Position numbers and translations under genes: made by a program. The notes under the pieces are model-generated. The model did not search any database and was not told the DNA's origin. It worked only from the letters and a program-made list of their open reading frames with translations. This document shows positions 5,317 through 34,814 of a stretch of DNA of 43,204 nt, piece by piece. Source of the stretch: Desulfobulbaceae bacterium (GTDB lineage: Bacteria > Desulfobacterota > Desulfobulbia > Desulfobulbales > Desulfobulbaceae); assembly GCA_030613515.1 (NCBI GenBank), contig JAUWLT010000002.1:1-43204 (forward strand), read 5' to 3'. Positions within the stretch are counted from its first letter, which is position 1. Every line of letters starts with the position of its first letter.

Positions 5317-7527
5317 CTATTTCCTTTTTCGTTTTACTATCTTCTTCTTATTTTTCTTTTTAGACATTCGCTGGGCATCGGCCAATCGCTTGCCGGCCTG
5401 CTGGATAAGGATTTCCTGTGATCCGGCCTGTTCAGCACGCCCTGAAGCCTTACGCTGGATATAGGTTCCATCGGCTTGCATGTCCCAACCACTGCGCTGG
5501 TTAGAGAGCTGGACATCAAGTATTTCCCGCAATTTTGTCCTCAAATCTTCCGGCTCAACCGGGGTGATAACCTCCACCCGTTCTTCCAAATTTCGTTTCA
5601 TAATATCGGCAGAACCGATAAAGTATTCTTCCCGGCCACCATTATAAAAATAATAAATACGGCTGTGCTCCAGAAACCTGCCGACGATGGAAACAACCCG
5701 TACATTATCAGACAACCCCCGGATGCCCGGCCTGAGACGACAGGTATCACGCACAATAAGATCCACCTTGACTCCTGCCATTGAGGCCCTGTACAGGGCA
5801 GCGGTAATATCCTTATCTTCAAGGGCGTTGGTCTTTAACTGGATATGTCCCGGTATCTTTGCGGTCTGGTTTCGTATTTCACGATCGATTTTTTCAAGCA
5901 GAGCCTTTTTCAATACCCTGGGAGACGGAAGCAGCTTCTGGTAATTTCGATCCGGAGCATAGCCGGTAGTCAGGTAATTAAACAACTCGGTCAGATCTTC
6001 TCCGATAATCGGGTCACAGGTCAGCAATCCCAGGTCTGAGTAAAGACGGGCGGTACCGGCATGGTAATTACCGGTTCCGATATGGGCATAACGACGTAGC
6101 CCGTCATAATCCCTGCGAATTACAAAAATCACCTTGGAATGAGTCTTGAGACCGACAACGCCATAGGTTACATGCACTCCGGCCTGCTCAAGGTATCCGG
6201 CCCAGTGGATATTGGCGGACTCATCAAAACGTGCCTGGAGTTCCACCACCACGGCCACCTGTTTGCCATTATGAGCAGCATCCAACAGATACTGGATAAC
6301 ACGAGAATCTGAGGAGGTGCGGTACAGGGTCATCTTGATGGCCAATACCTTGGGGTCCTCACTGGCCTCGCGCAGGAACCGCTCTACGGAACTGTTAAAA
6401 GACTCGTAGGGATGCTGCAGGAGAAGAGCCCCCTCTTCCCGGATGACATGAAAAATGTTTGGCGAATCACCCGAGAGCCTTGCATGGTCAAGGGGCTGGT
6501 GGAGCGGAAAATGAAGTTCCGGTTTATCAATTGCTGCAATTTCAAACAGATCACTTTTTCCAATTATTCCCTCAACCGTAAAAACATCCTTGTCTTCATC
6601 AATACCAAGTTCTGCAGCCAACATCCCCCGATGACTCGCAATCATACAGGATTCGACCTCCAGCCGGACAATCTCGGCAAATTTACGGTCTCGCAGTGCT
6701 GATTCAATGTCGGACAGGAGATCGTTGGCCTTGTCTCCGGCATTTTCCGTAATCGCATTGCGGGTGACCCTGAACAGCTCACAGGATTCAATCAACAACC
6801 CGGGAAAAACAGAAGCCAGGTTATTGGCAATCAGGTCTTCAAAACGAAGATAGAGATGTTGGTCACCAACCCTGATAAATCTCGGAATCCCAACCCCGGT
6901 CGGCACCTTGATCCGATTTAAAAAGGTATGCTCATCATGCTTATACCGGGTCACGACAAGTAGGTTAAGGGAAAGGTTGGATATAAAGGGAAAGGGATGG
7001 GCCGGATCCATTCCCTGGGGTGTCAGCAGGGGATAAATATTTTCATGAAAATAACGATCTACTTCCTTTTTATCCTCTTTATTCAACCCCCGATAGCGAA
7101 CAATCCTGATTTTCTGTCGGGACAGCAGCCTGAGCAGAGCCTCTTCAAGTTCTTCCTGCTGTGTCAGGAGATCACGGACCACCTCACAGCACTGCTCGAT
7201 CTGCTCTCCGGGAGTGCGTCCGTCCACGGTCAACTTGCGTACTCCGGCCCCAACCTGCTGTTTCAGGCCGCCAATACGTTTCATGAAAAATTCATCAAGA
7301 TTGGAGCCGACAATGGCCAGAAACATGATACGTTCCAGCAGCGGCGTACGGTTATCCTGCCCCTCATGCAGAACCCGGCGATTGAATTCCAGCCAGGTCA
7401 GCTCACGATTCAGGTACCATTGGGGAGAGGAGAGATCAAAACTCGTCCCCTGCCCCTTGTTGCCGGCAGTCTTTTTTTCCTTTTTTTCCTTTACCGCAGC
7501 AGTTACAACTTCAGCTCTTTGATTCAT
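5317..7527 (-). CDS. ppk1: Polyphosphate kinase 1
   Basis: 736 residues, slightly longer than the usual ~690 because of a Lys-rich N-terminal tail and a basic C-terminal tail ending KRKRK. PPK1 reversibly transfers the gamma phosphate of ATP onto polyphosphate. Recognisable blocks are YLNRELTWLEFNRRVL, SNLDEFFMKRIGGL, GLKTHSKV with the autophosphorylated histidine H463, RRYAHIGTGNYHAGTARLYS, and FLEHSRIYYF with the second active-site histidine H621. It starts 31 bases after the DUF4136 lipoprotein gene and is probably co-transcribed with it. The gene is convergent with the exonuclease gene across the 5084-5310 element. Confidence 0.97.
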   Translation of the reverse strand: MNQRAEVVTAAVKEKKEKKTAGNKGQGTSFDLSSPQWYLNRELTWLEFNRRVLHEGQDNRTPLLERIMFLAIVGSNLDEFFMKRIGGLKQQVGAGVRKLTVDGRTPGEQIEQCCEVVRDLLTQQEELEEALLRLLSRQKIRIVRYRGLNKEDKKEVDRYFHENIYPLLTPQGMDPAHPFPFISNLSLNLLVVTRYKHDEHTFLNRIKVPTGVGIPRFIRVGDQHLYLRFEDLIANNLASVFPGLLIESCELFRVTRNAITENAGDKANDLLSDIESALRDRKFAEIVRLEVESCMIASHRGMLAAELGIDEDKDVFTVEGIIGKSDLFEIAAIDKPELHFPLHQPLDHARLSGDSPNIFHVIREEGALLLQHPYESFNSSVERFLREASEDPKVLAIKMTLYRTSSDSRVIQYLLDAAHNGKQVAVVVELQARFDESANIHWAGYLEQAGVHVTYGVVGLKTHSKVIFVIRRDYDGLRRYAHIGTGNYHAGTARLYSDLGLLTCDPIIGEDLTELFNYLTTGYAPDRNYQKLLPSPRVLKKALLEKIDREIRNQTAKIPGHIQLKTNALEDKDITAALYRASMAGVKVDLIVRDTCRLRPGIRGLSDNVRVVSIVGRFLEHSRIYYFYNGGREEYFIGSADIMKRNLEERVEVITPVEPEDLRTKLREILDVQLSNQRSGWDMQADGTYIQRKASGRAEQAGSQEILIQQAGKRLADAQRMSKKKNKKKIVKRKRK

Positions 7528-7558
7528 ACCCGTCTCTCATTGATTACCAGGCAACCAC

Positions 7559-8137
7559 TTATTTTGATTTCTTTTCATTACCAGGCGGAAAATGATTCAA
7601 AATCTCTTGCACATATTCATCAATCGCCGCTCGCTGTTTCTCCTGATCGGATTGGCGGGAAACAATGCCGGTACCGAGTCCACGCCAGATCAATTCCTTC
7701 TTCGCATTATCAACAATGTCGATCACCAGCGTTCCCTCCTGGTAATAACCGACATCAACCCTGCCTCCATAAGCACTGCCCCCCCACCAGGGATCATACC
7801 AGGGATCTCGGTAATAGCCGCCGGGCCCACCCCAGTTGGTTACCCGCATTTTTTCTTTTACTACTGCCTGGGTAACGACAAGGACATCAGCCTGCGCAGA
7901 ATCAACCATGCGATAGCCCCTGGACTGCAGATACCTGTCAATGGAGTCTACGATACGGTTTTTCAGTAACTGATTTTTGGCAAGTTCATCATCAGCGCCA
8001 TTGGCCTGCCCCCAGTTATAGGTGTGGATTGCCGAAAAATCAGCCTTATTGTCGTAGTCATAATTAACACTGACGGTGCTGCAACCGCTTAAAAAATAAA
8101 CTACCAGCAGTGGTATGAGAAGTGAAAAACGATTCAT
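7559..8137 (-). CDS. DUF4136-family lipoprotein
   Basis: 192 residues with a lipoprotein signal peptide (MNRFSLLIPLLVVYFLSGC, lipid-modified C19). The mature part begins VSVNYDYDNKADFSAIHTYNW, typical of DUF4136, and has a Gly/Tyr/Trp-rich middle (GGPGGYYRDPWYDPWWGG) and the late motif LVIDIVDNAKKELIWRGLG. Function is unknown; members sit at the envelope. It lies directly upstream of ppk1 with a 31-base gap, so the two probably form an operon. Confidence 0.85.
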   Translation of the reverse strand: MNRFSLLIPLLVVYFLSGCSTVSVNYDYDNKADFSAIHTYNWGQANGADDELAKNQLLKNRIVDSIDRYLQSRGYRMVDSAQADVLVVTQAVVKEKMRVTNWGGPGGYYRDPWYDPWWGGSAYGGRVDVGYYQEGTLVIDIVDNAKKELIWRGLGTGIVSRQSDQEKQRAAIDEYVQEILNHFPPGNEKKSK

Positions 8138-8279
8138 AAAACCTCCTGAAAATGTCTATCTGATCGATTTGTAGCACAAATTACTACCCGCAACTACTCA
8201 TGGCCATGCCCCAAAAAACAAGATCAAACATAAGAACTAATACTATAATATCAAAGAGGTGCCTATTTGTACAGTGTTA

Positions 8280-8359
8280 CCGGGAGACAGATTAAATTTT
8301 CCCACCAGGCTGAGGGACTGAATTTTTTTGGTGTTTTTTGCAAAAATCATTCTGTCCCA
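8280..8359. repeat. REP-like element, copy 1
   Basis: The ends are CCGGGAGACAGATTAAATTTT on one side and AAAAATCATTCTGTCCCAG on the other, so the GGGACAGA boxes face inward as an imperfect inverted repeat. The same end sequences flank the element at 38436-38523. GGGGACAGATTTATTTT-type repeats are known as REP sequences around IS200-like (RAYT) transposases in Proteobacteria. No transposase gene is present here. Confidence 0.55.
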
Positions 8360-8416
8360 GATTGTGCTAGATAAAGGCTGCTCCATAAGTTCATCATTAT
8401 CTTCCAGGGGAAGAGG

Positions 8417-9271
8417 TTATTCTTTTTTCTTTAAATGACAGGCTGCATTGGAGTACTCCACCAGTTCCGCAACCAGGGAACCGATCAGGATTTTGGATTC
8501 AATTTCAACCGGTATCCGGCAGGCATCTTCGGACAACCAGAAAACGGTGTCGCCATCCTTGTCATATAAACCCTTAAAGCTCATCTTCGGCATCACCTTG
8601 ATGGTGTTAATGACACCAAAAATGGTTTTCCGGGGTTCAACACCAAAAACCTTAACCGCCACCTTATGCCGCTTTTTATCCACAAAGGTAGGAACAATCT
8701 CCTGACGCCCAGGGTCAAGCTGCAGGGCACGGGTAATAAAAAAGGAAGAAAATTCATTATATGCTGCTCCATCCATGGAGTAGACAACTTGGGGATTGTT
8801 ATTTTTCCGGTACAGTACTGAAAACTTCTGCTGGTCATACAGGGTAAGCCGTCGGACATCCATCTTCCTGCCCTCTTTCTGGTGCACCTCGTAGCGGTAT
8901 GGCAGTTTCAGGGGACCGCGTACGTAAGTGATAAAGGTGTCATCGACCGGATAAAAAAATTTAAACAGACCATAATCAGTAACCCGGGCAGTAATAACAA
9001 AGCCGTCTCCCGAATCTTCTGGAGCAACGGTCATGTACAAATCACCGATCTTGATACCGCCGGACCAGGAGATGGAAAAATGCATTTTTTCCCGGCCGGA
9101 ATAGATAGTGACAAAGGCCTCCTGGTCAATGAGGAGGGATGCTTCCTCTGTCAGGGCCACAACGGGAAAAAAGAAAAAGAAAAAAAGAAGAAACAAGAAA
9201 AAATCGTACTTATCCTGAGTTATCAGCAATTGTTTAAACCCGTATCCGAAGTTTCCAGTGTTCACCCTCAC
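8417..9271 (-). CDS. DUF3108-family envelope protein
   Basis: 284 residues from a GTG start. After a 20-residue leader comes an unusually Phe-rich hydrophobic segment (FFLFLLFFFFFFPVVAL), probably a signal peptide. The rest matches the DUF3108 pattern: FSISWSGGIKIGDLYMTV, a DGFVITARVTDYGLFKFFYPVDD region, RRLTLY, and late IPVEIESKILIGSLVAELVEY. DUF3108 proteins are periplasmic with no established biochemical role. The start is uncertain because no clear ribosome-binding site is seen and internal starts before the hydrophobic segment are possible. Confidence 0.75.
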   Translation of the reverse strand: MRVNTGNFGYGFKQLLITQDKYDFFLFLLFFFFFFPVVALTEEASLLIDQEAFVTIYSGREKMHFSISWSGGIKIGDLYMTVAPEDSGDGFVITARVTDYGLFKFFYPVDDTFITYVRGPLKLPYRYEVHQKEGRKMDVRRLTLYDQQKFSVLYRKNNNPQVVYSMDGAAYNEFSSFFITRALQLDPGRQEIVPTFVDKKRHKVAVKVFGVEPRKTIFGVINTIKVMPKMSFKGLYDKDGDTVFWLSEDACRIPVEIESKILIGSLVAELVEYSNAACHLKKKE

Positions 9272-26014: not shown

Positions 26015-26341
26015 TTACGCTAAATAATCATCTACTGATCTGTAGAGAGGAATAAATGTATCAAAACCTGAAATTTCCAGCACCTCTTTCACATGAGCCT
26101 GAGCGCTGCATATGGAAAATTTCCAGGAGTTTTTTTTCATTAATTTTGACAGATTTAATATTGTCCTGAGTCCGGCGCTGGAAATATAATCTAACCGGGA
26201 AAAATCCATTATCACATCGCACTTTGGAGGATCAAAATTTTTATTCGACCAATCCTCTAATTCACTTGATCCTATAGTATCAAGCCTGCCTTGGACAGCA
26301 ACGATCATCACATCGTTTTTTTGAGATACAGTAATGTTCAT
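26015..26341 (-). CDS. STAS-domain anti-sigma factor antagonist
   Basis: 108 residues, a single STAS domain: MNITVSQKNDVMIVAVQGRL, DVIMDFSRLDYISSAGLRTI and late FDTFIPLYRSVDDYLA. The serine pair in DYISSAGLR is the usual phosphorylation site of SpoIIAA/RsbV-type proteins. I start at the ATG five codons inside the longest frame because GGGGAAAG precedes it. It is the last gene of a cluster with an RsbW-like kinase and a SpoIIE-type phosphatase, completing a partner-switching circuit. No cognate sigma factor lies nearby. Confidence 0.88.
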   Translation of the reverse strand: MNITVSQKNDVMIVAVQGRLDTIGSSELEDWSNKNFDPPKCDVIMDFSRLDYISSAGLRTILNLSKLMKKNSWKFSICSAQAHVKEVLEISGFDTFIPLYRSVDDYLA

Positions 26342-26357
26342 TTCTTTCCCCATCCGG

Positions 26358-26771
26358 TTAGGTTAGCTTTTTCTCAATATGCAGTATGTTGGTATTATCT
26401 GTTCTGGTGTATGAAATAGTGTCTGCGTAATGCTTTACAAGGTACAATCCAAGCCCACCTGCCTTTCTTTGGTCAATTGGCAGGTGAACATCCGGATCCG
26501 GTATTTTTGTAGGATCAAATTCCGGTCCCTGATCGGTAATTGTGATGACAAGTTTATCTTTTTCCCGGCATAATTTGATTTCAACAGGGTGTATTGTGTT
26601 GTTTTCAACGTGCTCTGTATAGTTTGCATAAATTTCTTCAACAATCAGGTTTATTTCAAATAATTGTTTTTTTGATAAACTCCAGGAAGATGCTATCCTC
26701 CCCAGGTTTACCCTCAACTCATCCAGCCCCTTGCTGAAGTTCTGTATTTGAAATTCCTCAACTGTCTTCAT
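26358..26771 (-). CDS. RsbW/SpoIIAB-like anti-sigma serine kinase
   Basis: 137 residues, a GHKL ATPase of the HATPase_c_2 type. The N box is INLIVEEIYANYTEH, followed by LVITITDQGPEFDPTKIPDP and GGLGLYLVKHYAD (G boxes). Such proteins phosphorylate a STAS antagonist and bind a sigma factor or another output protein. It starts 22 bases after the ABC transporter gene and is followed by the STAS gene. The output partner is not identifiable; it could be a distant sigma factor or the transporter itself. Confidence 0.88.
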   Translation of the reverse strand: MKTVEEFQIQNFSKGLDELRVNLGRIASSWSLSKKQLFEINLIVEEIYANYTEHVENNTIHPVEIKLCREKDKLVITITDQGPEFDPTKIPDPDVHLPIDQRKAGGLGLYLVKHYADTISYTRTDNTNILHIEKKLT

Positions 26772-26793
26772 ATCTTAGAATGCAGAATTTATC

Positions 26794-29313
26794 CTAATTA
26801 TCTCCATGAATAAGTTCATAGAGTAATCCTTTTTGTTCGATCAGATCCTGGTATGTTCCTAATTCTACAAGTTTACCGGCTTTCATAACTCCGATTTTAC
26901 TAAAACCTTCAATGCTGTCCAGACGATGAACAACAGCTATAACTGTTCGCCTGCCCCGCCAGTTCTGTTCAATGAGTCCCTGAATTCGGGCCTGTGATTT
27001 GTTATCGAGAGCTGAGGTCGATTCATCCATGAGAATAATTTTCGGCTCTTTCAGCAACACTCTGGCAATGGCCAGTTTTTGTTTTTGTCCACCGGAAAGC
27101 CTGTTCCCCATGCTCCCCAAATGATAGTCCATGCCAGCTTCTGCAATGGACTCAAGGCAATCCTCCACTATCAGCAGGCGAATAATTCCCTGGCTTATTC
27201 TTTCCTGAACAACACTCTGTTCGGTTTTTATTCTGCCGAAGAGGATGTTATTCAGAATGGATTGTTCAGGAATGTAGGATGCTTCCTGAAAAGGATTAAA
27301 TTTGCCGGGAAAAGCCTTTTCACTCCATTGTGGCCATTCTTTTCTGCAGAACAGGATTAATTCTTCAAGTTCAGGCTGAAGGGGACCCCGCTTATGAATC
27401 CCTGGTATATATTGCAGGGCAAGTTCAAGAAGAAAATGTTGCTCTTTTGCGGAAAGATTGTCCGGTGTTTTCTCTCCAAGATGGTTGAGTATGATTTGAC
27501 AGGTATCCAACTGGTCAGCCGGAATCAGAATTTTGTCGGTAGATTGATCAATCCCTTCCGGCTTTGAAAGGATATCCAGGCATTGCCTCACCAGATCAAC
27601 ACCCAGGAAGAGCAGACTGCCGGTCAACCCCATTTTGTCCAGAAACATTCTGAACTGTGCGTCTGCAGCAAAGGAGGAAAATGAAAATGAATCCGTGGCC
27701 GGTGTACTGAAAATGATGTTTTCTATGACACTGGCACGGTGCAGGTAGTGGTCCTTTCGGTAGAACTCTATATGTTTTCCCAGTAATTGTTCAGCATCTT
27801 CTCTGAATTGTTTCCGCATCCGAATAACCTTGGCAATCATTCCCTTTTCCTCCGGGTCAAGAAAACTATCGAGGCCAAAGCGTATAACATCCACGAATAA
27901 TCCGGCTTGCTGCAGGGCAAGAATGAGTTGGTCCAGACTTGGCGGCTGGTATTTTTCTCCAGAGGATACGGTGCTGCCTGCGGCGCGATGGGCGTACAGC
28001 AGATTTTCACGAATGGTACCTGAAAAGATGAATGGATGTTGTGAGATGTAGCCGACATGCCGAATAATATCTTTTTTGCCCATCTCTTTTACTTCATGCC
28101 CATCCAGCAGAATTGAACCGCTGCTATAGTCAAACATCTTGGCAATGCAATGCACCAGGGTACTCTTGCCGCTCCCTGAAAAACCAACCAGTGCCATGTG
28201 CTCCCCGGCTTGCAGGGAAAAGGAGACATTTTTAAGTAAAGTGACCCCGTTAGTCGTTGTATAGCACAGGTTGGACACCTGTAAATGGCCGGCAAGTTTT
28301 TCCACCGGTTGCATGCTGATGGCCGGAGGATATCCGGCAGGAAGATCAAAATACTGCATGACCCGATGATAGCGAACTTTGGCATCCTGGTAGACCTGGT
28401 AGTATTCAATAAGTTCTTTCCAGGGATCATAGAGCTTTTCCTGTGCGGACAGGAATGCAACCATGGAGCCAAGTTCGAGTTGGCCGTTCATAACCAGATA
28501 GCCGCCAAAGAGAAACACCACAAAGGGTCCGAGGCTTACAAAGTAGTTATTGACGGTTTTGATGCTGAAACGCAAAAGAGACCACTTAATCCTGATAGCC
28601 TGTAACCCCTTTACCAGCCCATTGAATTTCTTTTCTTCCTGGGCATAAGCACCATGGACATTTATTTCCATCACCCCGGTAATGGATTCAGCAATCTGGC
28701 TGGCCACCAGTCGTGACTGATCCACCCGCTGCTTGTTTAAACGATTTGTTTTTTTCTGAAGATAGGGGATGAGAAAGACAGCAACAGGGTATATGCCAAG
28801 AGTGGCCAAGGCTAATTTGGGATTTAACCAGAGCAGATACCCGGCAAAGGCGAGCAGAGTGAGAATGTTTGACAGTGGAACTGCCAGTGCCATGCCGGCA
28901 AAGGTTCCTGCAGTATTTAACTCCGTCATCAGTGAGGAGACGACCATTCCCGGCTGGGTATTGCGGAAGAAATGGAGGGGCAGGGTGATGATGTGGTCAT
29001 AAAGCTCCTTTCGCATGGAAAGTATGGCCTGTTCACCGATACGTGCCTGCAGGTAGTTAATGGCAAGTTTTATGACGCCGGTGGCGGTAACCGCCAGCAG
29101 ATAAATAGCACAATAGAGCAGCAGACTGTTAAATTTGCCAAGGACTATAGCGTCATTGATAATTCTCTTCTGCATTTCCAGAGGAATAACTCTGGCAAAC
29201 ACAATACCCACAATCAGCAGCAAGAGCAGAAACTGGATTTTCAGGTTTCCTTTGAACGCCCAGGAAAATAACGATTTCCGGGTGACAGGGATGGGGGAGT
29301 GAGGAGTGCTCAT
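26794..29313 (-). CDS. ABC exporter (membrane and ATPase fused) with a very large insertion in the ATPase domain
   Basis: 839 residues against about 580-600 for a standard half-exporter. Residues 25-320 are the six-helix membrane domain. The ATPase domain has Walker A GFSGSGKST (377-385), Q-loop Q425 (YISQHPFIFSGTIRENLLY), signature LSGGQ (739-743), Walker B IILMDE (759-764) and H-loop H797. The Q-loop to signature distance is about 314 residues, where 60-80 is usual. The insertion contains two further Q-loop-like sites (SVIENIIFS at 528-536; EQSILNNILFG at 683-693), as if the helical subdomain had been repeated. Substrate unknown. The start overlaps the stop of the SpoIIE-type phosphatase gene, so expression is coupled. 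Confidence 0.88.
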   Translation of the reverse strand: MSTPHSPIPVTRKSLFSWAFKGNLKIQFLLLLLIVGIVFARVIPLEMQKRIINDAIVLGKFNSLLLYCAIYLLAVTATGVIKLAINYLQARIGEQAILSMRKELYDHIITLPLHFFRNTQPGMVVSSLMTELNTAGTFAGMALAVPLSNILTLLAFAGYLLWLNPKLALATLGIYPVAVFLIPYLQKKTNRLNKQRVDQSRLVASQIAESITGVMEINVHGAYAQEEKKFNGLVKGLQAIRIKWSLLRFSIKTVNNYFVSLGPFVVFLFGGYLVMNGQLELGSMVAFLSAQEKLYDPWKELIEYYQVYQDAKVRYHRVMQYFDLPAGYPPAISMQPVEKLAGHLQVSNLCYTTTNGVTLLKNVSFSLQAGEHMALVGFSGSGKSTLVHCIAKMFDYSSGSILLDGHEVKEMGKKDIIRHVGYISQHPFIFSGTIRENLLYAHRAAGSTVSSGEKYQPPSLDQLILALQQAGLFVDVIRFGLDSFLDPEEKGMIAKVIRMRKQFREDAEQLLGKHIEFYRKDHYLHRASVIENIIFSTPATDSFSFSSFAADAQFRMFLDKMGLTGSLLFLGVDLVRQCLDILSKPEGIDQSTDKILIPADQLDTCQIILNHLGEKTPDNLSAKEQHFLLELALQYIPGIHKRGPLQPELEELILFCRKEWPQWSEKAFPGKFNPFQEASYIPEQSILNNILFGRIKTEQSVVQERISQGIIRLLIVEDCLESIAEAGMDYHLGSMGNRLSGGQKQKLAIARVLLKEPKIILMDESTSALDNKSQARIQGLIEQNWRGRRTVIAVVHRLDSIEGFSKIGVMKAGKLVELGTYQDLIEQKGLLYELIHGDN

Positions 29314-31154
29314 TATGAGGTTTGTCGGGTTTCCGAATGGGTGGATGTCGCACCGTCAATGGTGATCGCTACCAGAGTGATATCATCATGCAAGGCCATA
29401 CTTCCCCTGAATTCATCAATGGCTGCTGTTATGCATTCCAGAAGGGCAGACGGCGACAGATGGTGATTTTCCGCAATAATATCTTTCAACCGTTGCCTGC
29501 CAAACTGTTCTCTTGTCTCATTTTCAGCTTCCCAGGCCCCGTCGCTGCTGATAAGGACGACAGCTTTTTCTCCGGCAAGGGCAAGAGTATTTGTTTGAAA
29601 TTGATAATCGGCGTCAAGGCCAAGGACCAGACCTTTGCCCTTTATGTCTATAAATTCTCCGCGTGCCGGGACAAAAAGGATTCCGGGATCATGGCCGGCC
29701 CGGACCCATTGCAATTCCTGCCGTGCGGCATCAATAGTAAGATAGAACAGGGACGCAAAATTACCTGACTGAGAAGTGTCCCGGCACAGCTGCAGATTGA
29801 CATCAGCAATCAATTGATGCGGGCTCCCCGGCTGGTCGATTCTGGACCGCACTAAAGCACGCAACGTGGCCATCAGCAATGCCGCACCGATACCGTGGCC
29901 AACCACATCACCAACCACAACGTGCAGCCTGCCTGGCTGGGAATCAGATTCAATGAAATCAAAATAGTCTCCGCCGGTTTCGTCGCAGTACACGCTCAAA
30001 CCGCTCACTTCCAGTCCGTTCTTAGAATAGTCGCTTTGCGGCAAAAGCGTCAACTGAACCTCTCTGGCTATATTCATTGCTTCCTGCAATTGAAGGCCTT
30101 TCTCAAGTTGATTGCTCATTGTATTAAAGTTTCTGGTCAGCTCTCCAACTTCGTCCCTGCTGGTTACCGGGAGTGGCTCACCAAAGATTCCCTGAGCCAG
30201 ATTGCTTGCGGTTTGAGAAACTTTTTTGATGGCCCGGGTCGTCTGAGTAATCATTAATCGAATAAAGAGGAGAATGATACCGATGCAGGCAACAGCTGTC
30301 AGAAAATACACCAGGCGAAAGTGAATAATTGGTCGCAGAACTTTTTTTCCCGGTGCAATGACGACCATGGTCCAGGGGACTTCTTTAAGCCGATAAAAAC
30401 CACTGATTTCTTTTGGTGGCCGTCCCGGGCCGAAAACAGTACCGGATTTATTGTCCTTCAGGGCAGCCATGGTTTTTTGTTCAAGAAGATCTGTTGTGCC
30501 AAATAATTGTGTGTCTTTTCCCGGAATTTTATTCTGCTCATTGATGGTGCTGGTCAGAACATGACCATCAAGATCAACGATGTAGGCTTTATAGACATTC
30601 CACCATGGAGTTTGAACGGTCTTGGAAATAAGTGATTCGAAATCGATAATAACCTCTATCCTTCCAGTCGTATCGCCCTTATCATCAACAAAGTTGCTCA
30701 CCAGAGTGAATGTTTTACTATTGTGTTCGACATTGTAGGCTGGTGCTGTTACGTCAAACAGGCCCCTGAAAGTATGCCGGTTTCCATTGCCTGTCATTTT
30801 TCGGCGCATGCCCCATCGTCCCTGATTACTCATATTTTCCGGCCAGTCCACTTTTACATCGACCACACCATCAATTTTGTTCAGTTGATCAATGATAAAT
30901 TTCTGAATAGTGTCAGTTGAATTTATTTTTCTCAGATCTTCGAGAAGAAAGACTATTTTTTTTGGTTGGTTAAGCCGCATGTCGATATTGTGGGCCGCCC
31001 GTTCAAGGTTGGCTAAAGCAGCCTGACCCCACTGGTCAAGCAGCACTTTTCTAACAGCACGAAAGCCGAACAGACCTGCAAGGGTAAGAAACAGAAAGAT
31101 TGGTACCAGTATAAAAATAATGGTTCGCTGATGAAGAGTTTTGGGGTGATACAT
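29313..31154 (-). CDS. Membrane SpoIIE-type (PP2C) serine phosphatase with Cache-like sensor and HAMP
   Basis: 613 residues. Two membrane helices (about 11-31 and 280-302) enclose a Cache-like extracytoplasmic domain. HAMP follows at about 303-355 (GELTRNFNTMSNQLEKG), then a PP2C/SpoIIE phosphatase domain: AREVQLTLLPQ, ETGGDYFDFIE, VVVGDVVGHGIGAALLMATL, and the terminal ALHDDITLVAITI. The metal-binding Asp residues in GGDYFD, GDVVGHG and HDD are present. It would dephosphorylate the STAS antagonist in response to an external signal. It begins 51 bases after hgcB with its own ribosome-binding site (AAAGG), so it may be transcribed with the hgcAB operon. Confidence 0.9.
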   Translation of the reverse strand: MYHPKTLHQRTIIFILVPIFLFLTLAGLFGFRAVRKVLLDQWGQAALANLERAAHNIDMRLNQPKKIVFLLEDLRKINSTDTIQKFIIDQLNKIDGVVDVKVDWPENMSNQGRWGMRRKMTGNGNRHTFRGLFDVTAPAYNVEHNSKTFTLVSNFVDDKGDTTGRIEVIIDFESLISKTVQTPWWNVYKAYIVDLDGHVLTSTINEQNKIPGKDTQLFGTTDLLEQKTMAALKDNKSGTVFGPGRPPKEISGFYRLKEVPWTMVVIAPGKKVLRPIIHFRLVYFLTAVACIGIILLFIRLMITQTTRAIKKVSQTASNLAQGIFGEPLPVTSRDEVGELTRNFNTMSNQLEKGLQLQEAMNIAREVQLTLLPQSDYSKNGLEVSGLSVYCDETGGDYFDFIESDSQPGRLHVVVGDVVGHGIGAALLMATLRALVRSRIDQPGSPHQLIADVNLQLCRDTSQSGNFASLFYLTIDAARQELQWVRAGHDPGILFVPARGEFIDIKGKGLVLGLDADYQFQTNTLALAGEKAVVLISSDGAWEAENETREQFGRQRLKDIIAENHHLSPSALLECITAAIDEFRGSMALHDDITLVAITIDGATSTHSETRQTS

Positions 31155-31205: not shown

Positions 31206-31475
31206 TTAGCAGCATGGCCCTTCAATACCCAGTAGTTCGTTAATGATCCCGCGTACGCATCCTTCACCAGCTTCCACTGTGATTGCTCCTGTGGGACAGT
31301 TGCGCATGCAGGCGCCGCATTCCATGCACAGGTTGCGGGCAGCCATGACTGCTTTTTTATCTTTGATGATAAAAACGCCGTGCGGGCAGACCACGGTACA
31401 CATGGAACATCCTATGCATTTGTTCTGGTCACATTCAAGGGTGACCACATCTTCGAGATAGTGAAATTCAGTCAT
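31206..31475 (-). CDS. hgcB: HgcB, two-[4Fe-4S] ferredoxin of mercury methylation
   Basis: 89 residues. Two CxxCxxCxxxC clusters (C20/23/26/30 and C50/53/56/60) bind [4Fe-4S] centres. The HgcB features are present: C73 and a C-terminal vicinal pair C88-C89, proposed to bind and pass on Hg or its methylated form. HgcB reduces the corrinoid of HgcA after each methyl transfer. I start at MTEFHYLED, where ribosome-binding site AAGGAG lies 7-8 bases upstream; the longer frame would read back through hgcA. It begins 11 bases after the hgcA stop. Confidence 0.96.
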   Translation of the reverse strand: MTEFHYLEDVVTLECDQNKCIGCSMCTVVCPHGVFIIKDKKAVMAARNLCMECGACMRNCPTGAITVEAGEGCVRGIINELLGIEGPCC

Positions 31476-31486
31476 TGTTTTTCTCC

Positions 31487-32602
31487 TTATGCCAGCCACA
31501 ACGAAGCAGCCCACAATCCTGTTCCGCTGACAATGAAAATGAACTGAACCGGCATTGCCCGAAGCATCTCTTTTTTGACACCATTGAGTGAGGTGTAGGT
31601 CGAAGCGCCGGTAAAGGCCATGCCGAACCAGGAGGAAACGGCCAGAGTGATGAGCAGCCAGGAGCTTTTTGCGAGCAAAGAATAGTCCATACCAAAAACT
31701 GTTGATGTGAACAGCAAAGCAAAGAGAACCAGACCGCACAAGCCTCCCTTGACGCTGAAAGCCCTGCCTGGAATCCAGGGCAGCAGCAGCGGAACAGCAA
31801 TGGTACCGGCCGCAATTCCGGTCAGGAGGGCCAGAGACGGCGGCAGGCCATGGCTGACTGCGGCCTGCAGAAATGGTCCGTCTCCGACAAAACCGGCCAG
31901 CAGGAGAAAAAACAGGATAATAGGGAGCCCCTGCTGCAAGGCCTGCATGATCTCAACAGGGATCAGCACCAATCGCTCATGCAAAGGAAACTCTTTGATC
32001 CGCATCTTAGTCGTCGCTTTGCAGTCATTATCCAGAAACGCAGGCAGATCCTGCAACATCACCGGTCCATAGGTAACGGAAAAGCCGCTGAATTTTTTTA
32101 TTTCAAAGGCGGCTACCCCGGTTGCACCCAGCTGCGGGACAATCAGCTTTCGGTGACTGACCACGTCCTGCAACCGTGAAGCCTTGATGCGGTCTATCAG
32201 TTCCTCGGTACCAAAGGTTCCTTTACCGGCAGCACACCAGACATTGATCCCTTTTGTATCCAGCACCAGTATCCAGCATGACTTGTCGCCCATGGTCCGG
32301 CGGAGCAGATCAAAGCTTAATTTGTAGTTGGCTGTTACCAGGACGGGGCTGTCGTTTATCGGCTCACCCATCCCATAGAGACCGGGATCTACGGTAAAAT
32401 GATCACGGCCGATATTCCAGCGCACCAGGTAATGGCCGCGTTTGTCTGCCCAATGAAGATCTGAGCCAATCCTTGGAACTTCGCCTACCTTAGTCATCAC
32501 TGTGCCAAGGACAACGGGCTGGTCTTTAGAGGGAAGTCGAAACTCTCCTGCCCCCTCCGGCACAGGCTGGGCCATGGGCAGGATCATCAAGGGTGCATTC
32601 AT
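31487..32602 (-). CDS. hgcA: HgcA, corrinoid mercury methyltransferase
   Basis: 371 residues. The diagnostic cap-helix motif NVWCAAGK lies at 120-127, with C123 the lower-axial cobalt ligand that allows methyl-carbanion transfer to Hg(II). The cytoplasmic corrinoid-binding domain (about 20-215) is followed by five membrane helices in the C-terminal 150 residues. With HgcB it makes methylmercury from Hg(II), using a methyl group from the one-carbon pathway. The ATG overlaps the permease stop codon (ATGA), indicating translational coupling with the metal-transport gene. CFeSP (CdhD) shares the corrinoid domain but lacks this motif and the membrane part, so the call is firm. Confidence 0.97.
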   Translation of the reverse strand: MNAPLMILPMAQPVPEGAGEFRLPSKDQPVVLGTVMTKVGEVPRIGSDLHWADKRGHYLVRWNIGRDHFTVDPGLYGMGEPINDSPVLVTANYKLSFDLLRRTMGDKSCWILVLDTKGINVWCAAGKGTFGTEELIDRIKASRLQDVVSHRKLIVPQLGATGVAAFEIKKFSGFSVTYGPVMLQDLPAFLDNDCKATTKMRIKEFPLHERLVLIPVEIMQALQQGLPIILFFLLLAGFVGDGPFLQAAVSHGLPPSLALLTGIAAGTIAVPLLLPWIPGRAFSVKGGLCGLVLFALLFTSTVFGMDYSLLAKSSWLLITLAVSSWFGMAFTGASTYTSLNGVKKEMLRAMPVQFIFIVSGTGLWAASLWLA

Positions 32603-33843
32603 TTTGTACTGTCCTCGTGAAGTGGTGATAAGGGCTGGAGTGATATCGGTTCATCTGTCCGGCACGAACCTCCAAAGCCGCAATCTGCAGCCTCCATGTG
32701 TACGTGATCATGACTGTGAGCGTGATCATGACCGGTGGAACAGGTCCCGGATGAGCAGCCACAGCCGTCTCCCTTGCCAAACCAGCCCCGTAAAATGGCA
32801 TACAAAGGGTGGATGGAAAGGGCTAACAGCAAAAGAGTGGCAGATGTCATCAGCCAGCCCGGCAGGACATCTGCAACCTGACCGACAGCCGCAACGGCAG
32901 AGACGCCAAGGGAGAGGTAAACGGCATCAACGGCAAGCCCGCAAAGGACACTGACGATTGCAATGGATGATAAATATAAAATGGTGGCCCGTTTGCCAAG
33001 CATACCCACCAGGACGGAAAGTGAGGTGACATTGGTTGCCGGTCCGACCAGCAGAAAGACCAGGGCCGTTCCGGGGCTGACGCCCTTCATGATAAAGGCT
33101 GCTGCAATGGGAGTTGATGCCGTAGCGCAGATATAGAGGGGAATACCAAAGGTCAGCATGAGCAGCATGGACCCGAGCCCACCGCCCAGGTATCTGGCGA
33201 TCACTGCATCGGGAACCAAGACGCTGATGAGTCCTGCCAGAAGTATACCGACAAAAAACCAGCCGGCAAGATCTGCCCAGAGATCGGTAGCAGCATATTT
33301 TACACCTATCCGCAGCTTTTCAAGCAGGGGATGATGGTGTTTATGTTCATCCGGCGGGCAATCAATCCCGTCACAGCAGTTATCTATGGGACAGCTCAGG
33401 TCAGGAGTTGCCTGTTTGCTCTCGTCCGGAGGGTTAAAAAAGTTTTCAGCACAGCCGGCTACAAAGGCGGAAATAAAGGCAGAGATCGGCCGGGCAATGG
33501 TCATGATGGGATCAAGCAGAGCCCAGGTGATGGAAATGGAGTCCACACCGGATTCCGGAGTGGAAATAAGAAATGCCGTGGTAGCCCCGTTATTTGCCCC
33601 CTGTTTTTTCAACGAGGCCGCCGCCGGCAGGACACCGCAGGAACAGAGCGGAATGGGGATACCGAGCAAGGCTGCCTTGAAAACTGAGCTGAAACGCCCA
33701 CTGCCCAGATGGGCCGCCACATAGGCCGGGGACAGGAACATTTTGAGCAGTCCGCCTATCAAAAGACCAAACAGGATATAGATCGAGGCCTGCTGGAGCA
33801 TGTCCCAAGAGGCTAGAAGGACGTTATTGATAAAGGTGAGCAT
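32599..33843 (-). CDS. SO_0444-type Cu/Zn permease (DUF318 fold)
   Basis: 414 residues with about 8-10 membrane helices. Paired conserved motifs are IPIPLCSCGVLPAAASLKKQ and ISTPESGVDSISITWALLDP in the first half, and GIPLYICATASTPIAAAF with LLVGPATNVTSL in the second half, as in the SO_0444 family of Cu/Zn efflux permeases related to ArsP. The cytoplasmic or periplasmic loop (about 148-175) holds CPIDNCCDGIDCPPDEHKHHH. The tail is rich in Cys and His (GCGCSSGTC; HDHAHSHDHVH), a probable metal-binding region. It starts 2 bases after the regulator gene and overlaps hgcA by 4 bases. Arsenical transport is the main alternative. Confidence 0.85.
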   Translation of the reverse strand: MLTFINNVLLASWDMLQQASIYILFGLLIGGLLKMFLSPAYVAAHLGSGRFSSVFKAALLGIPIPLCSCGVLPAAASLKKQGANNGATTAFLISTPESGVDSISITWALLDPIMTIARPISAFISAFVAGCAENFFNPPDESKQATPDLSCPIDNCCDGIDCPPDEHKHHHPLLEKLRIGVKYAATDLWADLAGWFFVGILLAGLISVLVPDAVIARYLGGGLGSMLLMLTFGIPLYICATASTPIAAAFIMKGVSPGTALVFLLVGPATNVTSLSVLVGMLGKRATILYLSSIAIVSVLCGLAVDAVYLSLGVSAVAAVGQVADVLPGWLMTSATLLLLALSIHPLYAILRGWFGKGDGCGCSSGTCSTGHDHAHSHDHVHMEAADCGFGGSCRTDEPISLQPLSPLHEDSTK

Positions 33844-33845
33844 GA

Positions 33846-34226
33846 TTATTTGTCCTCACGGAGATGTTCAAGGGCCAGATGAATAAGTGAGCTGACATGA
33901 CTGTCATTGAGTCGGTAATAAAGAACAGGCCCCTCGCGCCGATTAGACACTAATTGTAATTGTCTCAGTTGACGCAGCTGATGACTAACCGCTGATTCGC
34001 TGACCCCGACAAACAGGGCCAGGTCGCAGACACACATTTCCTCACGATCCAGGGCCCACAGAATTCGCAACCGATTGGGATCGCCCATAGCTTTGAACAG
34101 GGCTGCCAGCTGTTCATTTTCTCTTGGGGGCAAAGCATGTTCTTTTGCTGTCCGCACTCTATCCTGATGGATACAACGGCATTCACACTGTTCACTTTGT
34201 GCAGGTAGATTTTTTTTCATTTTCAT
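33846..34226 (-). CDS. ArsR/SmtB-family (CadC-like) metal-sensing repressor
   Basis: 126 residues. A winged HTH is formed by MGDPNRLRILWALDREEMC, VCDLALFVGVSESAVSHQL and RREGPVLYYRLND. The metal-site motif is CVCD at the third helix, as in CadC and ArsR. Extra N-terminal cysteines and a His (CECRCIH) match the CadC arrangement for Cd/Pb/Zn binding, and the C-terminal helix has HVSSLIHLALEH, similar to the SmtB zinc site. It is the first gene of the operon ending in hgcB and should repress its own promoter, where a dyad operator covers the -10. Two starts (34226 and 34220) are possible. Confidence 0.93.
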   Translation of the reverse strand: MKMKKNLPAQSEQCECRCIHQDRVRTAKEHALPPRENEQLAALFKAMGDPNRLRILWALDREEMCVCDLALFVGVSESAVSHQLRQLRQLQLVSNRREGPVLYYRLNDSHVSSLIHLALEHLREDK

Positions 34227-34243
34227 TATTCGCAGTTTTTTTA

Positions 34244-34267
34244 ATATATGATCATTTGTTCATATAT
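34244..34267. promoter_or_regulatory. ArsR/SmtB-type operator (12-2-12-like dyad)
   Basis: ATATATGATCA and TGTTCATATAT flank a TT centre; 10 of 11 positions are complementary. This is the usual form of SmtB/CadC/ArsR operators (ATATATGAACA-like half-sites). It begins 17 bases before the regulator ATG and covers the -10 element. Confidence 0.85.
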
Positions 34268-34291
34268 AGAGTTGTCTATGGGGGTTGTCAA
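34263..34291 (-). promoter_or_regulatory. Sigma-70-type promoter of the regulator-permease-hgcAB operon
   Basis: On the minus strand a perfect -35 TTGACA (34286-34291) is followed by a 17-base spacer and -10 TATATA (34263-34268). The operator at 34244-34267 overlaps the -10, so a bound repressor would block polymerase. Confidence 0.85.
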
Positions 34292-34547: not shown

Positions 34548-34814
34548 ATGATGCATGATGGATTTGGATCTGGATTTGGACATTTCAGCAACTGGTTATG
34601 CGGACCGGGCGCATTTTTCCCCGGACCCCTGGGCTGGATAATTACCCTTTTCTTCTGGGGGTTGATCATCTACCTGGTGGTCAAACTCTTTCAGGCCCTG
34701 TTTTCAGGTGGAAAAAGAATCTCTACAACTGCTCTTGATACCTTAAAAGAGCGTTTTGCTCGCGGTGAAATTAATGAAGATGAATATCGCCGCATGAAGA
34801 CTGAACTCGGTTAA
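34548..34814 (+). CDS. Small SHOCT-domain membrane protein
   Basis: 88 residues. An aromatic and Gly-rich N-terminus (GFGSGFGHFSNWLCGPGAFF) leads to one membrane helix (about 29-50). The C-terminal 28 residues are a SHOCT motif (LDTLKERFARGEINEDEYRRMKTEL), found at protein ends and thought to mediate oligomerisation or nucleic-acid or peptide contacts. A ribosome-binding site (AGGAGC) is present. It follows a sigma-54 promoter and lies beside the divergent metal operon; a link with metal stress is possible but not shown. Its stop codon is formed by the first bases of a repeat element (34811). Confidence 0.8.
   Translation: MMHDGFGSGFGHFSNWLCGPGAFFPGPLGWIITLFFWGLIIYLVVKLFQALFSGGKRISTTALDTLKERFARGEINEDEYRRMKTELG

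Follow-up and report, generated by a model that had tools for sequence, protein, structure and literature searches.

A metal-inducible efflux-plus-methylation operon as the best explanation for hgcAB behind a CadC/SmtB-type regulator and an SO_0444-family permease in a Desulfobulbaceae bacterium

ArsR-like control of the mercury-methylation genes hgcAB and the occurrence of ars genes beside them are already published (PMC7438021, PMC10349881). In Desulfovibrio and Pseudodesulfovibrio, an ArsR-like gene lies upstream of hgcAB and is reportedly co-transcribed with it (Goni-Urriza 2020; Gionfriddo 2023; both as cited in PMC7438021 and PMC10349881), and arsenic-responsive control of hgcAB was shown in strain ND132, according to the citing papers. 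Here we describe hgcA and hgcB behind a regulator gene and a permease gene in a stretch of 43,204 nucleotides from a Desulfobulbaceae bacterium (GenBank assembly GCA_030613515.1, contig JAUWLT010000002.1, positions 1 to 43,204 of the forward strand), hereafter the window. Like the Desulfovibrio and Pseudodesulfovibrio loci as described in those papers, the locus has an ArsR-family gene upstream of hgcAB. It differs from their description in that the regulator is of the CadC/SmtB type, with the alpha3N as well as the alpha5 ligands, and in that an SO_0444-family permease gene stands between the regulator gene and hgcA.

Sec-assisted organometallic (SAO) systems contain SaoE together with fusion proteins that resemble HgcAB (Haft and Gwadz 2023, cited in PMC13188914). 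Their likeness to the unit described here lies in a PF03773-type transporter and HgcAB-like proteins within the same organometal context. However, our permease falls below the SaoE cut-off (NF040736; 180 versus 325 bits), and our HgcA and HgcB fall below the cut-off for the HgcAB-like fusions. The methylarsenite exporter ArsP shares the Pfam family PF03773 with the permease, whereas the permease itself falls within the SO_0444 equivalog. CadC of Staphylococcus aureus plasmid pI258 (PDB 1u2w) and SmtB (1r1t) share their ligand residues and fold family with our regulator; in contrast, their targets are a P-type ATPase or a metallothionein rather than a permease with hgcAB, and the regulator here has an extra cysteine in its N-terminus (CxCxC). 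The arsR-SO_0444 two-gene cassette of Desulfobacterota has the same regulator, operator, permease and spacing, but here hgcAB is attached behind the permease, with a 4-bp gene overlap.

We propose that the locus is a metal-inducible efflux-plus-methylation operon, which is the best explanation of the anatomy described below and to which we assign a probability of about 0.62. Its features are as follows.

34286 to 34291, minus strand: -35 hexamer TTGACA, read from the sequence
34263 to 34268, minus strand: -10 hexamer TATATA, separated from the -35 by 17 bp and overlapping the operator dyad, read from the sequence
34244 to 34267, minus strand: putative operator dyad ATATATGAACA-AA-TGATCATATAT, from arm pairing, uniqueness and conservation
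33846 to 34226, minus strand: arsR, a CadC/SmtB-type metalloregulator of 126 amino acids (aa), by NF033788 and ligand alignment
32599 to 33843, minus strand: SO_0444-family permease (PF03773) of 414 aa with a C-terminal tail rich in Cys and His, by NF033936
32599 to 32602, minus strand: ATGA overlap of the permease stop and the hgcA start, read from the sequence
31487 to 32602, minus strand: hgcA, corrinoid mercury-methylation protein of 371 aa with the cap-helix NVWCAAGK (Cys123), by NF040863
31206 to 31475, minus strand: hgcB, ferredoxin with two [4Fe-4S] clusters, 89 aa, with Cys73 and terminal Cys88-Cys89, by NF040864

By both NCBIfam cut-offs, the locus genes are HgcA (416.1 bits against 275) and HgcB (103.9 bits against 99). 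The HgcA cap-helix, N120 to G126 with the corrinoid ligand C123, is invariant within its clade, and the C-terminal part (residues 216-370) carries the hydrophobic segments of membrane helices. HgcB has two CX2CX2CX3C clusters besides Cys73 and the C-terminal Cys pair 88-89. The HgcA cap-helix with C123, Cys73 and the terminal Cys pair of HgcB, the ATGA overlap, the 2-bp gap between regulator and permease, the TTGACA-N17-TATATA promoter and the dyad had all been named by the original prediction, a reading of the bare sequence, and all are present to the base.

The regulator scores 96.8 bits with NF033788 (cut-off 55), matches Pfam HTH_5 and has SmtB (2e-32) and CadC (1e-21) as its closest solved relatives. 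Its C14, C18, C65 and C67 align with C7, C11, C58 and C60 of CadC, the four-cysteine alpha3N site (the crystallised 1u2w chain used for the alignment has Gly at position 11), and D108, H110, H121 and E124 align with the alpha5 metal site (D-x-H-x10-H-x2-E). Across 11 orthologues, C14, C16, C18, C65, C67, D108, H110 and H121 are invariant, and E124 is present in most. Judged by these alignments, the regulator is a two-site CadC/SmtB-type sensor. The motifs RCICG (alpha3) and TCYC (wing), present in 18 other hgcA loci, are absent from it; in the other hgcA clade of the order, an ArsR that has both motifs and no CadC-like N-terminus lies directly upstream of hgcA. The earlier label, CadC/ArsR-type, was thus apt in its CadC half, given the CadC/SmtB-like ligand set, and not in its likeness to an arsenic-type ArsR.

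The putative operator covers the -10 upstream of arsR and its arms pair at 10 of 11 positions. Shuffling predicts 0.00 such dyads in the window, and the site is single across the 2.67-Mb assembly at up to 3 mismatches. Its form, a 12-2-12-like inverted repeat within the promoter, is that expected for a CadC/SmtB-type regulator. Among 52 related arsR-permease pairs, 37 have an element before arsR that agrees with the dyad in no fewer than 10 of its 11 core positions, where single-base shuffling predicts 0.1; in most orthologues a TTGAC stands 27-37 bp from it, usually about 30 bp before it. The conserved operator with its -35 also occurs in cassettes that lack hgcAB, at the host's second copy of the pair and in the distant genome G492. 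Along the unit, the spacings are 2 bp (arsR-permease), -4 bp (permease-hgcA) and 11 bp (hgcA-hgcB). Within it, scans gave no internal promoter or terminator signals above chance; the simple promoter scan demands T at the last -10 position and so does not list TTGACA-17-TATATA itself.

An order-wide survey, in which 137 of 258 genomes exceeded the HgcA cut-off and 98 hgcA loci were read in detail, placed this arrangement in its context. The SO_0444 permease is joined to hgcA in 13 of the 98 loci (14 with the window, one of them a fusion), so the arrangement is not general for methylators (about 14 of 99 hgcA loci of the order). In the comparison of gene order across hgcA-bearing genomes that had been suggested as a check, arsR-permease-hgcA is kept in 13 genomes of two families, in most with the 4-bp overlap. 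In 12 of these hgcB follows hgcA; in G024 it was not found by search. The relatives that bear names are Desulfobulbaceae metagenome-assembled genomes (MAGs). In the tree, the HgcA of the 13 linked genomes group with that of G108 in a single clade (support 99/98), to which most of the order's remaining HgcA do not belong. The distances among ArsR, permease and HgcA correlate (r 0.67-0.83), which indicates that these genes travelled as a unit.

Linkage of permease and HgcA goes further in two genomes. In G227 (97% complete, 1% contamination; fusion contig of 35.5 kb), a single open reading frame of 758 aa comprises the permease, a short linker and HgcA, and hgcB comes next. In G492, of a distant family, a CadC-type arsR, an SO_0444 permease and hgcA follow one another with an operator. 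Its HgcA lies in a different clade, with that of G380, and the linkage represents a second, independent origin. A second kind of hgcAB-permease operon, arsR-hgcA-hgcB-thioredoxin-PF03773 permease, was found in G556, of another family (locus L313, 1111-4508), and G380 has hgcA-hgcB-thioredoxin-PF03773 permease. A full-length PF03773 gene lies within 5 kb of hgcA in 6 of 183 other loci, compared with an approximate expectation of 0.47 from the PF03773 density in 59 genomes of the phylum; four of the six are on the other strand.

Further candidates for fusions were rejected. The 838-aa HgcA of G287 spans an assembly gap filled with N; the long HgcA frames in G382, G380 and G524 have an N-terminal extension without a recognised partner domain; and in G492 the permease and HgcA are two genes, the apparent permease TGA being its normal stop. 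As separate observations, a PF03773 permease with its own ArsR stands near hgcAB on the other strand in L191 (Smithella), L156 and L177, and one hgcA (L005/L065, G001:C111) has a single in-frame TGA, for which selenocysteine, a frameshift or an error are alternatives.

The permease belongs to the SO_0444 family by NF033936 (399.7 bits; cut-off 300) and to PF03773 (ArsP_1). SO_0444 itself is required for growth under Zn/Cu stress (PMC3219624), and a relative in Nitratiruptor is induced by Cd and Cu (PMC10092412). C67 and C69 (PLCSCG, a CxC motif) are invariant in the 50 PF03773 proteins compared, with identity down to about 20% and no ArsP of known function among them. The internal repeats align with a score of 135 (shuffled maximum 68), an alignment that sets C67 against C239. 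A structural model from 12 close orthologues was useless (pLDDT 36.6); that from the 50-member alignment reached pLDDT 82 and pTM 0.80, with two repeats visible and a disordered tail. In structure it matches best with transporters that have re-entrant hairpins, among them ArsB, which exports arsenite (10tp; Z 13.7, 4.6 A over 279 residues), although helical folds reach high Z easily. The fold may thus resemble that of the IT superfamily (ArsB, AbgT, DASS, TRAP, CNT), in which two inverted repeats carry such hairpins. No structural match passed the Foldseek E of 0.001, and a sequence search of the PDB found no relative. A soft-metal site at the modelled hairpins is a reasonable inference. Among stand-alone SO_0444 permeases, L225, L230, L233, L234 and L237 have one in-frame TGA each, at about the CxC motif in L225, L233 and L234, which fits the selenoprotein forms reported for the family.

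The arsR-permease pair is common without hgcAB in Desulfobacterota, being present in many genomes, and in the permease tree the stand-alone permeases are nested among the hgcA-linked ones. Some cassettes carry scars. G030 retains a truncated hgcA start (MNAPAKGVLPAMILPMASGVPSGAGEFHLPSADQPF) that the permease still overlaps. Decayed hgcA starts remain behind the permease in G170 and G175, and in G175 the remnant runs directly into the hgcB end at a common FTVEAGEG-like stretch. All three scars lie inside contigs rather than at contig ends. A further hgcA exists elsewhere in both G170 and G175, that of G170 belonging to the other clade. Scars behind a kept arsR-permease pair indicate that hgcAB was lost repeatedly while regulator and permease were retained. 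On this evidence, hgcAB was joined as a module to an older metal-efflux cassette and has repeatedly been lost from it. The earlier description of hgcAB as embedded in a metal-regulated operon was right for this locus, to be completed by the fact that the cassette also exists without hgcAB and, as it appears, predates the module. The host assembly has a second arsR-permease copy (L243, G000:C40, about 7018-8491), 87% identical over part of the permease. It looks broken, with the permease in pieces and the regulator split; it has an operator-like site of its own and no hgcA nearby.

After weighing these data, we suggest a putative mechanism. A CadC/SmtB-type repressor would occupy the 12-2-12-like operator over the -10 and silence its own transcript. 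Binding of a thiophilic metal (Cd, Pb, Zn or Hg) at the four-cysteine site would release the repressor, and arsR, permease, hgcA and hgcB would then be made from a single transcript, with translational coupling at the ATGA overlap. The permease may act as an elevator-like carrier that exports a soft metal, with CxC at a re-entrant hairpin, and HgcAB would methylate Hg(II) drawn from the same thiolate-bound pool. In evolution, hgcAB would have been attached behind an older arsR-permease pair, travelled as a unit, been fused to the permease once and been deleted several times. Co-induction by thiophilic metals, as the original prediction had it, is well supported by the anatomy and is the best reading, because the unit is operon-like, the sensor is CadC-like with a thiolate-type site, the operator lies over the -10 and the arrangement is kept across genomes. 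The list of inducers has to be revised. Cd, Zn and Pb suit the CadC-type ligands and stay; arsenic becomes the least likely of those listed on account of the same ligands; and Hg, which was not listed, should be added. Cd, Pb, Zn or Hg is thus more likely than arsenic as the inducer, as far as ligand residues can tell.

Several observations weigh against this operon model. No arsR lies directly upstream of the G227 fusion. The G492 linkage is absent from the other 11 genomes of its order, and G492 is represented by one contig. The genomes are mostly fragmented assemblies, and MAGs where named. In G108 (L083), a close HgcA relative, hgcAB follows a liv-type amino-acid ABC operon, and neither arsR nor the permease accompanies it. 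Finally, given how common the hgcAB-free pair is, the permease need not serve mercury.

How far mercury itself is handled by the permease is a separate matter. In this lineage, the permease could be dedicated to the export of Hg(II) or methylmercury and form a methylation-export complex with HgcA (one polypeptide in G227); methylation would then supply the enzymatic step in metal-induced efflux of mercury. We regard this view as possible but less likely than not: shared regulation by itself does not readily account for the fusion and the second origin, whereas the cassettes free of hgcAB speak for a wider role in metal handling. An alternative that we likewise consider rather unlikely takes the permease to be an ordinary Cd/Zn/Cu exporter whose promoter hgcAB borrows; methylation would still be metal-induced, and mercury would not be a substrate. 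The action of SO_0444 relatives on Cu, Zn and Cd and the wide occurrence of the pair without hgcAB, including its survival of hgcAB loss, speak for it. However, the G227 fusion, the independent G492 linkage and the excess of PF03773 genes near other hgcAB suggest more than a shared promoter.

An arsenic detoxification operon, in which HgcAB would act on arsenic or aid arsenic tolerance and the permease would export an organoarsenical like ArsP, is improbable. PF03773 includes ArsP, ars genes often flank hgcAB (PMC7438021), and hgcAB of Pseudodesulfovibrio mercurii ND132 is reportedly under ArsR-family control and responsive to arsenic (as cited in PMC10349881). However, our regulator has the full CadC ligand set, our permease is in SO_0444 above that family's own cut-off, and the RCICG/TCYC type of ArsR accompanies the order's second hgcA clade and not this locus. 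That the genes are mere neighbours, with hgcAB read from its own constitutive promoter, is highly improbable: G096 (L078), a member or neighbour of the same HgcA clade, does have hgcA behind an unrelated large sugar-phosphate synthase-like gene without a permease, but the overlap, the gene order that 13 genomes from two families share, the fusion and the lack of internal promoter or terminator signals above chance in our scan all argue for co-regulation.

With the metal-inducible operon as the preferred reading, the conserved unit and the permease-HgcA fusion that occurs in nature suggest candidates both for an exporter and for the signal behind methylmercury formation. The unit thereby speaks to the questions of what hgcAB is for, when it is expressed and how methylmercury, or the mercury from which it is made, leaves the cell. 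If this is true, the formation of methylmercury by these sediment sulfate reducers would hinge on co-contaminating metals (Cd, Zn or Pb, for example), and counts of hgcA genes alone would mislead. The deletion scars show that some lineages can do without methylation and yet retain the metal cassette, a point of relevance to the native role of hgcAB. We found no report in the literature of a CadC-type regulator at hgcAB, of the SO_0444 linkage, of a permease-HgcA fusion or of the deletion scars, which is weak evidence of novelty, as subscription papers lay mostly outside the search.

The surroundings of the unit can be described briefly. Positions 26015-31154 of the window hold genes for a SpoIIE phosphatase, an ABC transporter, a kinase-like protein and a STAS protein, on the same strand and 51 bp after hgcB. 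An hgcAB-free arsR-permease pair in G103 (L244) adjoins the same SpoIIE/ABC/kinase-like/STAS block in inverted orientation, and a SpoIIE relative adjoins the cassette of G359 (L252). On the other side, at 34548-34814 on the plus strand, a small SHOCT-domain membrane protein is encoded divergently from arsR.

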